DNA of 33,779 bases from Bacteroidota bacterium (GTDB taxonomy: Bacteria > Bacteroidota > Ignavibacteria > Tepidaquicellales > Tepidaquicellaceae), in NCBI GenBank assembly GCA_021286895.1, contig JAJTBN010000006.1, positions 1-33,779 of the forward strand, given 5' to 3'. Each line of letters opens with the position of its first letter. The first letter of the stretch is position 1. Below the pieces are notes generated by a model, which was given only the letters and a program-made list of their open reading frames with translations, did not search any database and was not told the DNA's origin. A program made the translations under genes and the position numbers. Positions 23,521 to 25,748 of the stretch are shown one piece after another.

Positions 23521-24804
23521 TTATCTGAGCGAATGCACTTTGTTTAAAACCGGTACGTCGATGTTTTCCTTCGGTATTTTTTTCTCGAATTCGGAACGGA
23601 ATTTCTTGATGGTCCATTTAACCGGCCATGCCGCCGCGTCGCCGAGCGCGCAGATAGTATTCCCTTCGATATTCTGCGCGACCGAAGTAAGCAAATCCAG
23701 ATCGCTTAATCTTCCCTTGCCCGAGTCGATTCTTTTCAGGACTCTGTACAGCCAACCGGTTCCCTCCCTGCATGGAGTGCACTGACCGCAGGATTCGTGA
23801 TAATAAAATTTCGATATTCTTATGAGAACTTTGAGCAGGTCGGTATCTTCGTTCATAACCATGACGCCCGCCGTGCCAATGGACGAGCCGAATTCCTTGA
23901 GGCTCTCGTTGTCCATATTCGCTTTCAGGCATTCTTCTTTCGTTAGAGGCGGCATTGACGAGCCGCCGGGGATTACCATTTTAATTTCTTTGCCGTCGAG
24001 CATACCGCCGCATACGTCGTTTATGATTGTCATGAGCGGCGTGCCTGTCGGCAGTTCATAAACTCCGGGTTTATTAACGTGACCGCTCACTCCGAACAAA
24101 AGCGTGCCGGGGTGTTTGGGCGCGCCGATTTTAGAGAACCATTCGGCGCCGTTCCTAATTATTTCAGGAACGTTCGCGAGAGTTTCGATATTGTTAATAG
24201 TCGTCGGGCATCCCCAGAGGCCGAAGGCCGCGGGGAACGGAGGCTTGACGCGCGGATAGCCGCGTTTGCCTTCGATTGAATTCATCAAAGCGGATTCTTC
24301 GCCGCAGATATAAGCGCCCGCTCCGCGGTGAATGTATATGTCAGTAGAGAAATCCGTACCAAGAATATTTTTTCCTATATAGCCTTTTTTATAAGCGTCG
24401 TCTATGGCGGTCTGAAGAAGATTAATCCATTTGTAATACTCGCCTCTGATGTAAACGTAAGCGGCTTTAATGCCCATAGCGTAGCAGGCAAGGAGCACGC
24501 CTTCGATGAACTGGTGGGGATTCCTCTCGAAAATTTCCCTGTCCTTGAAACTGCCGGGCTCTGATTCGTCGCCGTTGCAGCAGAGATATTTTGGTTTGTC
24601 GCTGTTCTTTGGCATGAAGGTCCATTTGAGGCCTGTAGGAAAGCACGCGCCGCCCCTGCCGCGAAGGTTGGAGGCTTTAACCTCGTTAGTAACGTCGTCC
24701 GGTGACATTTCCTTCAGCGCTTTCTTTAAAGCCGAATAGCCGCCGTTCGATTCGTAAACGTCTATCCTGTGAAAATCCTTTATATCCTTTAAAATTATAT
24801 TCAT
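23521..24804 (-). CDS. nuoF: NADH-quinone oxidoreductase subunit F (NADH/FMN-binding)
   Basis: The 427 residues make up the NADH- and FMN-binding subunit of Complex I that passes electrons to the first iron-sulfur cluster. GRGGACFPTGLKW and NGDESEPGSFKDR form the FMN/NADH site, followed by HRGAGAYICGEESAL with GKRGYPRVKPP. The 4Fe-4S motif SCGQCTPCREG plus a later cysteine in NTICALGD are intact. Length matches the family. The 5 prime gap (24805-24849) contains the left arm of the GxxExxY cassette, so the usual nuoE-nuoF junction has been separated by about 430 bases. ATG at 24802-24804 opens directly at the usual N-terminal position. Expression would need read-through from the nuoCDE genes across the cassette. 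Confidence 0.97.
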   Translation of the reverse strand: MNIILKDIKDFHRIDVYESNGGYSALKKALKEMSPDDVTNEVKASNLRGRGGACFPTGLKWTFMPKNSDKPKYLCCNGDESEPGSFKDREIFERNPHQFIEGVLLACYAMGIKAAYVYIRGEYYKWINLLQTAIDDAYKKGYIGKNILGTDFSTDIYIHRGAGAYICGEESALMNSIEGKRGYPRVKPPFPAAFGLWGCPTTINNIETLANVPEIIRNGAEWFSKIGAPKHPGTLLFGVSGHVNKPGVYELPTGTPLMTIINDVCGGMLDGKEIKMVIPGGSSMPPLTKEECLKANMDNESLKEFGSSIGTAGVMVMNEDTDLLKVLIRISKFYYHESCGQCTPCREGTGWLYRVLKRIDSGKGRLSDLDLLTSVAQNIEGNTICALGDAAAWPVKWTIKKFRSEFEKKIPKENIDVPVLNKVHSLR

Positions 24805-24828
24805 TTTATTGTTACATTTTTTAATATC

Positions 24829-25270
24829 TCACCACAGAGAACACAGAGACTACACGACTCTTCTTTTTATTCCGTCTGTTAATACTTTTGTGTTAAAATT
24901 TATTAAAAGACCTGTTTTAATATTTGCCAACTTTAAATATGATATTAGTTGAGCCTCATGTATCGGCATCAAACATTCTACTGATTTTAACTCCACGATT
25001 ACTTCTTTATTTACCAACAAATCCAATCTGTATCCGCAATCGAGTTTAACTTCTTTATAAATCAAAGGTATCGGCTTCTGTCTCTCCACTTCCAAACCCG
25101 ACTGCATAAGTTCATAACACAAACATTCTTCATACGCACTTTCAAGTAATCCCGGTCCTAATGCTTTATGAACATTAATCGCACAGCCGATTATCTTTTC
25201 AGTTAATGGATCCATGTCCAATATTAATAATTTTAGCTCTTCTCTGTGATCTCTGTGTCCTCTGTGGTGA
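24829..25270. mobile_element. Putative GxxExxY cassette with inverted CACAGAG repeats
   Basis: The left arm TCACCACAGAGAACACAGAGA (24829-24849) is matched in reverse complement by the right arm at 25250-25270 with one mismatch in 21 bases. The right arm extends inward as a third 9-base unit (NCACAGAGN). The left arm abuts the stop codon of the GxxExxY gene, and the right arm runs into the end of nuoE, so the cassette holds just that gene. No transposase is present. Whether it moved as a unit is inference; neither a target duplication nor an empty site can be seen in this window. Confidence 0.6.
24850..25215 (-). CDS. GxxExxY-family protein (PD-(D/E)xK-like fold)
   Basis: About 121 residues from the ATG at 25213-25215 (a TTG six bases upstream is less likely). 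The name-giving motif is visible as GLLESAY in ALGPGLLESAYEECL. Nuclease-fold features follow: an Asp in GYRLDLLV, the ExK of VIVELKSVE, and a Gln in EAQLISYL. The family resembles PD-(D/E)xK nucleases, but its cellular role is not established. It lies between nuoE and nuoF on the same strand, unrelated to respiration, and is flanked by inverted CACAGAG repeats (24829-24849 and 25250-25270). Base use is more AT-rich than in the nuo genes, which supports arrival as a separate unit. Confidence 0.9.
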   Translation of the reverse strand: MDPLTEKIIGCAINVHKALGPGLLESAYEECLCYELMQSGLEVERQKPIPLIYKEVKLDCGYRLDLLVNKEVIVELKSVECLMPIHEAQLISYLKLANIKTGLLINFNTKVLTDGIKRRVV

Positions 25271-25748
25271 AATGTTTTTTGAATTCGTCCAACAGAACAT
25301 CCATCTTTGATGTATCCAGGTTTTCATAATACTCCCTGTTGTTCACCTGCATCATCGGCGCCGTCGCGCATGAGCCGAGGCATTCGACTTCCTCAATCGT
25401 GAACATTCCGTCAGGAGTCGTTTCATTATTTTTTATTCCGAGTTTTTCGGAAACATAATTATACAGTTCGTAGCCGCCGCGGAGCATGCAGGACACGTTC
25501 GTGCATATCTGCATGTGATACTTCCCTCTCGGCTGCTTGTTGAACATCGTATAAAAAGTCACTACACCGAGAATGTGCTCGTAAGCGACGTCCAGCAGAC
25601 CGCCGACGTACCTCATCGAATCGGGTGAAATCCATCCTTCCTTCTCCTGCACCATCCAGAGCACGGGCAGCAGGACCGCCTGCGAAGACGGATAATGCGA
25701 CTTAATCTCTTCTACTTTCTTTAATTCTTCTTCGTTGAATAATTGCAT
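25233..25748 (-). CDS. nuoE: NADH-quinone oxidoreductase subunit E with repeat-derived C-terminus
   Basis: The 171 residues are the thioredoxin-fold, 2Fe-2S subunit of Complex I that partners NuoF. The cluster cysteines are in CTNVSC and in VECLGSC. The normal protein ends near LLDEFKK; here the last twelve or so residues (FTTEDTEITEKS) are encoded by the CACAGAG repeat arm at 25250-25270 and the bases beside it, ending with TAA at 25233-25235. The original stop codon seems to have been replaced by repeat sequence. The tail is acidic and probably disordered, and the core is intact, so function is probably kept. The gene starts 22 bases after nuoD. ATG at 25746-25748. Confidence 0.95.
   Translation of the reverse strand: MQLFNEEELKKVEEIKSHYPSSQAVLLPVLWMVQEKEGWISPDSMRYVGGLLDVAYEHILGVVTFYTMFNKQPRGKYHMQICTNVSCMLRGGYELYNYVSEKLGIKNNETTPDGMFTIEEVECLGSCATAPMMQVNNREYYENLDTSKMDVLLDEFKKHFTTEDTEITEKS

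Follow-up and report, generated by a model that had tools for sequence, protein, structure and literature searches.

In a 33,779-nucleotide stretch of DNA from a Bacteroidota bacterium (contig JAJTBN010000006.1 of genome G000; the whole stretch is hereafter called the window), a small gene flanked by inverted repeats lies within the nuo operon between nuoE and nuoF. We asked what kind of genetic unit this gene and its repeats represent, whether they belong together elsewhere, and how such a unit could spread. A first-pass annotation made from the letters of the window had proposed a gene for a 121-residue GxxExxY protein, bounded by inverted arms of about 21 bases with one mismatch and with a 9-base CACAGAG periodicity in the right arm, and had suggested that the whole was a poorly described mobile element.

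A nuclease gene between inverted arms in the nuo operon

The nuo genes of the window are found on the minus strand, in the order nuoC, nuoD, nuoE, an open reading frame of 123 codons and nuoF. The cassette and its neighbours are laid out as follows.

23521..24804, minus strand: nuoF, the downstream neighbour of the cassette
24829..24848, plus strand: arm on the 3' side of the GxxExxY gene, reading inward on the plus strand as TCACCACAGAGAACACAGAG, with two units
24850..25221, minus strand: GxxExxY PD-(D/E)XK nuclease gene, identified by profile matches, conserved residues, an AlphaFold model and Foldseek neighbours
25233..25748, minus strand: nuoE, with its C-terminus rewritten by the arm (..FTTEDTEITEKS*)
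25242..25271, minus strand: arm on the 5' side of the GxxExxY gene, reading inward on the minus strand as TTCACCACAGAGGACACAGAGATCACAGAG, with three units at spacing 9

Translation of the GxxExxY gene could start either at an ATG at 25215, giving 121 amino acids, or at a TTG at 25221, giving 123. A repeat search of the window returned inverted repeats around this gene at 24823-24854 and 25245-25276 (32 nt, 84% complementary), in which the inverted arms of 20-21 nt had the core TCACCACAGAGrACACAGAGA with one mismatch. The CACAGAG units number three at 9-nt spacing on the 5' side of the gene, which is the right side in the window, and two on the other side. Together with profile matches for the protein and the identification of its neighbours as NuoE and NuoF, these results bore out the gene, the arms and the right-arm periodicity as initially described. 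Beyond what the first-pass annotation had pointed out, the 5' arm overlaps the 3' end of nuoE, such that the last NuoE residues and the stop codon come from the arm; the tail TTEDTEITEKS (window 25233-25268) is translated repeat, and repeat-derived tails of this type in protein databases probably betray arrays inserted at the ends of genes. Folding the RNA of the whole cassette, we found that the arms pair as a closing stem of 25 bp, at -124.8 kcal/mol compared to -91 +/- 5 for shuffled sequences (z -6.8).

The encoded protein is a plain member of its family, matching TIGR04256 (GxxExxY) at 161 bits with a cut-off of 35 and PF13366 (PDDEXK_3) at 154 bits with a cut-off of 22. The PD-(D/E)XK assignment was its sole match in Pfam and NCBIfam, with no match to Y1/HUH transposases. 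Conserved positions of GxxExxY proteins (domain numbering) are G17/G19, E22, Y25, D62 and E72-x-K74, and the putative catalytic residues D62, E72 and K74 are invariant in the alignment. An AlphaFold model reached a pLDDT of 95, and the nearest folds found with Foldseek were PD-(D/E)XK nucleases (AdnAB/AddAB, Cas4, PspGI, R2 endonuclease and lambda-type nucleases), none of them at E<=1e-3. Sequence searches of the PDB gave no match, the PADLOC models gave no match to an anti-phage defence family and only Cas4b at E 0.015, and PHROGs and Rfam likewise yielded no informative match. The TIGR04256 and PF13366 models cover the protein; in the open-licence literature, to which our search was confined so that a description elsewhere is possible, we found no paper describing cognate repeat arms or their association with GxxExxY genes.

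Short-period arrays around GxxExxY genes

We compared the flanks (250 nt on each side) of 73 GxxExxY copies from 36 related genomes by their best match in inverted orientation, with a score threshold of at least 18. The median score between the upstream and downstream flanks was 22 for the same copy, 13 when flanks of other copies were combined and 12 for displaced flanks, with the threshold reached in 75%, 14% and 4% of cases, respectively. A broad sample of 77 loci from Proteobacteria, Chloroflexota, Planctomycetota, Acidobacteria, Verrucomicrobia, Chlamydiae, Cyanobacteria, Bacteroidota and others gave 69%, 14% and 8%. Arms thus flank GxxExxY genes in relatives as well as in many phyla, while 25-31% of the copies had no clear arms. 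Eight matches to GxxExxY copies were found on plasmids.

The anatomy of the arms was equally regular. Using a strict array pattern of two CRCnnRG units at spacing 8 or 9, inward versus other orientation was seen 33 versus 6 times upstream and 28 versus 4 times downstream in 70 relatives; inward arrays were present upstream in 33/70 relatives and 44/74 broad loci, compared to 1/70 and 4/74 of the displaced flanks. Of the 55 copies in which both arms could be typed, 38 had an identical commonest unit on the two sides, as against a mean of 8 and a maximum of 20 after shuffling. At 50 loci, the similarity between left and right ended sharply at an outer TTNACC, four to five bases beyond the first unit, giving an arm architecture of TTNACC followed by CRCnnRG arrays. 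Inverted duplication of flanking DNA was rejected as a general origin of the arms, as the similarity stops at TTNACC, and such duplication was seen only in the mini-elements of one genome (G286, see below).

The units seen in arms included CACAGAG, CACTAAG, CGCAAAG, CGCCAAG, CACGAATT and CAGATT. In the assembly of the window itself (330 contigs) there were six GxxExxY matches without CACAGAG arms in common, and the copies with readable flanks had their own arm types: CACTAAG (C43), CGCTAATT (C143) and CAGATA-like (C319/C251). With one other exact CACAGAG array in this genome and other units at other copies, the idea of CACAGAG as a universal arm was rejected. The CACAGAG arms proposed at first are hence present at the window, but as one of several units, so that arms need to be searched for as a class.

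The type of arm followed the type of nuclease. Among pairs sharing less than 70% identity, copies with more similar nucleases also had more similar arms (Mantel r 0.25, p 0.001), in contrast to displaced flanks (r -0.04), and unit type required 42 changes on the protein tree, compared to a mean of 73.6 and a minimum of 67 after shuffling. A distant GxxExxY clade in G001-G004 had no arms anywhere in the genus; this clade serves as a natural negative control, and is also counted against reading the gene as part of an element.

A second gene family showed a similar organization. The four-helix-bundle genes (TIGR02436) of the same genomes lie between inverted short-period arrays of other units, with scores of at least 18 in 83% of same-copy comparisons, 22% of cross comparisons and 0% of displaced ones, whereby two unrelated gene families follow one plan. 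At 30 such loci in relatives (L111-L140) the inverted arrays had units of about 7 nt, including AGTATTG, GTTATAA, GTTACAA, AATCAAG and GTTAACT. We found no paper describing this association in the open-licence literature, with the same possibility of a description elsewhere. At one locus (L030, G014:C8:358634-359931), a four-helix-bundle gene adjoins a tandem pair of identical GxxExxY cassettes, whose arms are of the CGCAGAT/CGCAGAG type.

Dispersed arrays and occupancy of shared sites

Arrays were also found away from the genes. Matches to a three-unit pattern numbered 22 in G000, 45 in G001, 17 in G003, 38 in G004 and one in G002, with zero matches to the reversed pattern in each of the five genomes. 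In G003 and G004, which have a nuo-junction gene with CACAGAG arms, the arrays were mostly CACAGAG; G001, having genes with CGCAAAG and CACTAAG arms, held dispersed arrays of these two types, and G002 had no such armed GxxExxY gene and almost no arrays. Exceptions were G008, with CACTAAG arrays, and G000, with CGCAAAG arrays, as no matching GxxExxY gene was found in either assembly. Of 296 genomes in the phylum, 26 had ACCACAGAG-CACAGAG arrays and all 26 had GxxExxY (one only weakly), compared to 126/270 of the other genomes, although this association (Fisher 1e-8; family-stratified 0.007) is in part circular, given that the search pattern also matches the arms of the genes themselves. Y1 transposases were likewise enriched in array genomes (p 0.0014). 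The RAYT (Y1_Tnp) genes of the same genomes (L251-L265) were, however, bounded by CCGTAGGG..TTTGTAG REP hairpins and not by these arrays, and a RAYT/HUH enzyme as the mobiliser was rejected since its loci bear other repeats.

Pairs of inward-facing arrays were bimodal in length, with one group of 54-169 nt holding no gene and another of 422-706 nt. A GxxExxY gene lay inside 37 of the 38 long pairs and was the only gene found in them, a figure that is not unbiased as the loci were partly chosen for GxxExxY.

Some arrays had further structure. In two gene-less mini-elements of G286 (L277 and L278) the palindrome extends into the host flank, with 20 or more bases inverted on the other side, and at L278 the inverted copy is the end of the neighbouring gene; these palindromes look as if they had been made by fold-back copying. 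Tandem copies of the right arm with an AT spacer were seen just downstream of GxxExxY, about ten of ~53 bp at L266 1150-1750 (G001) and about six of ~60 bp at the G004 nuo junction (L085 and G004:C499:1429-1750).

These findings bear upon the possibility that the nuclease is a passive passenger, either cargo or a selfish addiction or defence gene, with an unrelated transposase or recombinase acting on the arms in trans. A GxxExxY gene can travel as cargo, as seen at two Bacteroidota loci (L144 2250-2950 and L150 2250-2950) where it lies in an element of ~700 bp with IS1595-like ends (GCTACTCTTTnTA..) and 8-bp target duplications (CCCGGGGA; TGCCCCCG), with proteins 92% identical and flanks unrelated; this element we take to be an IS1595-like MITE carrying the gene. 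Outside machinery in common could also explain why the four-helix-bundle genes have the same inverted short-array architecture. Against this stand the tracking of nuclease clade by arm unit, the content of the gene-length arm pairs, and the other repeats around the RAYT genes, which would be the most obvious candidate here, and we consider the passenger explanation unlikely. Mobilisation in trans, as had been raised in the first-pass annotation, is accordingly possible but not favoured, because the arm type tracks the nuclease clade and the gene-less mini-elements have the same ends.

The annotation had also called for relatives with an empty nuoE-nuoF junction, and such were found. A GxxExxY gene occupies the junction in G000, G001, G003 and G004, while G002 and most of the family have an empty junction and G008 a lone arm. 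G002 is the closest relative, with a NuoE 89% identical to that of G000. The GxxExxY genes at the junction in the four congeners are 52-69% identical; between G003 and G004 the identity is 93% for NuoE and 94% for NuoF, but only 53% for the GxxExxY protein. The four genes are mutual nearest kin and a single clade was not rejected (AU p 0.485), so that recent separate insertion of all four is unsupported. Related cassettes may have replaced one another at this junction, insertion may have been repeated, or a single old insertion may have diverged fast. Turnover is seen more cleanly at a site common to L060, L061 and L063, where both flanks have 72-78% DNA identity and the L060 GxxExxY is only 36-37% identical to the others. 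A mini-element of G004 is missing from the matching region of G003, which has a REP cluster there instead. With G002 empty and other sites re-occupied by unlike GxxExxY genes, pure vertical inheritance was rejected as a full account. At L055 a neighbouring gene lies to the left of the cassette, and the same gene lies to the right at L058, L074 and L076 with unchanged orientation, which is a local move or a rearrangement.

Many copies nevertheless occupy one and the same site in different species, and their genes are conserved to the same degree as the flanks. Copies are hence fairly stable, which counts against present mobility, and among the loci compared we saw no transposition event, same-species pair of empty and filled sites or target-site duplication for the common cassette; in the comparison with G002 none could be made out at the nuo junction, the empty site there being too diverged. 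Such stability could also be expected if the nuclease were sedentary, for example a self-repressing repair or defence enzyme, with the arms being its regulatory or binding sites and the dispersed arrays its genomic targets, and the proximity of its fold to Cas4, AddAB and lambda-type nucleases agrees with this. The flanking of the gene by inverted arms, the existence of mini-elements without a gene, presence and absence between congeners and the re-filling of one site by other GxxExxY lineages all fit an element better, and no defence family was matched, making a sedentary nuclease very improbable in our view. The initial proposal of a poorly described mobile element is well supported by arms elsewhere and empty junctions, with movement itself not observed.

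A proposed REPtron-like family and its relation to known systems

On balance, and with moderate confidence, we read the cassette as a gene-bearing copy of a widespread REPtron-like family having the PD-(D/E)XK nuclease as its presumed mobiliser. Its ends would be inward-facing arrays of two to four short units with a period of 8-9, each starting at TTNACC, and its core the GxxExxY nuclease. The nuclease may recognise its own arrays and cut DNA at them, and cutting could drive the spread of array-ended DNA through copy or repair; the gene-less arrays would then be non-autonomous passengers, comparable to REPs in relation to RAYT. Since neither a transposition event nor a target duplication came to light, it is from comparison that we infer this role of the nuclease, the copying step and the choice of target. 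The arm hairpin in the transcript is probably a substrate of RNase III, like that of 23S rRNA intervening sequences, an analogy which suggests processing of the cassette RNA stem and which may make an insertion in the nuo operon tolerable.

In REPtrons, a RAYT tyrosine (HUH) transposase is accompanied by GTAG REPs (PMC3733652). The likeness lies in a small gene between inverted short repeats, lone copies dispersed between genes and a repeat type linked to the enzyme, whereas the GxxExxY enzyme is a PD-(D/E)XK nuclease instead of HUH, its repeats are period-8/9 arrays starting with TTNACC instead of GTAG-tagged hairpins, and the RAYTs of the same genomes have REPs of their own. Tandem 7-9-nt units are also known from the STRR of cyanobacteria and the TAACTGA repeats, intergenic in Cyanobacteria, Bacteroidetes and Beggiatoaceae (PMC4679880); in the part of that source considered here no gene is linked to them, whereas each gene family studied herein carries its own unit, and the 7-nt unit types of the four-helix-bundle genes may be compared with those heptamer arrays. 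In the open-licence literature, the dispersed heptamers and the RAYT REPtrons (PMC3733652) are the nearest described phenomena. MITEs and IS1595-family elements with passenger genes are similar as short inverted-repeat elements lacking a transposase, although the common GxxExxY cassette is without the ends of the L144/L150 element and had no detected target duplication.

The intervening sequence of Coxiella 23S rRNA is 428 nt long, with an ORF, 28-bp terminal inverted repeats and involvement of RNase III (PMC4990558). Like the intervening sequences with an S23p/four-helix-bundle ORF, the cassette has ~430 nt, one ORF and terminal inverted repeats that pair into a long stem in RNA, and would spread without a recognised transposase; unlike them, it is found in a protein operon and not in rRNA, its protein is unrelated to S23p, and its arms are short-period arrays with dispersed relatives. 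The size and plan in common with Coxiella, the closing stem and the occurrence of IVS-type four-helix-bundle genes on the same plan could point to an element acting at the RNA level, where RNase III cuts the arm hairpin to make the insertion silent and spread occurs rarely by general recombination. As this leaves the dispersed lone arrays, the mini-elements of about a hundred bases, the fixed TTNACC end and the way in which unit sequence follows nuclease clade unexplained, we find it quite unlikely.

More tentatively, the REPtron-like reading may be extended to a pan-bacterial class of elements that spread themselves. Here a PD-(D/E)XK nuclease, and not a DDE, HUH, tyrosine or serine transposase, would recognise short-period arrays and mobilise the DNA that ends in them; nuclease and array units would have diversified together into many specificities, and the four-helix-bundle IVS-type genes would form a second, parallel class. 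Many bacterial phyla have GxxExxY genes to which no function is assigned, and arrays of the CACAGAG type fill the DNA between genes and alter the C-termini of proteins; the link between them provides both with a function that can be tested. As the arm type tracks the nuclease clade, the family offers a series of pairs of nuclease and recognition sequence, useful for learning how the PD-(D/E)XK fold reads DNA, and it may also explain the origin and spread of 23S rRNA intervening sequences and of the cyanobacterial short repeats.
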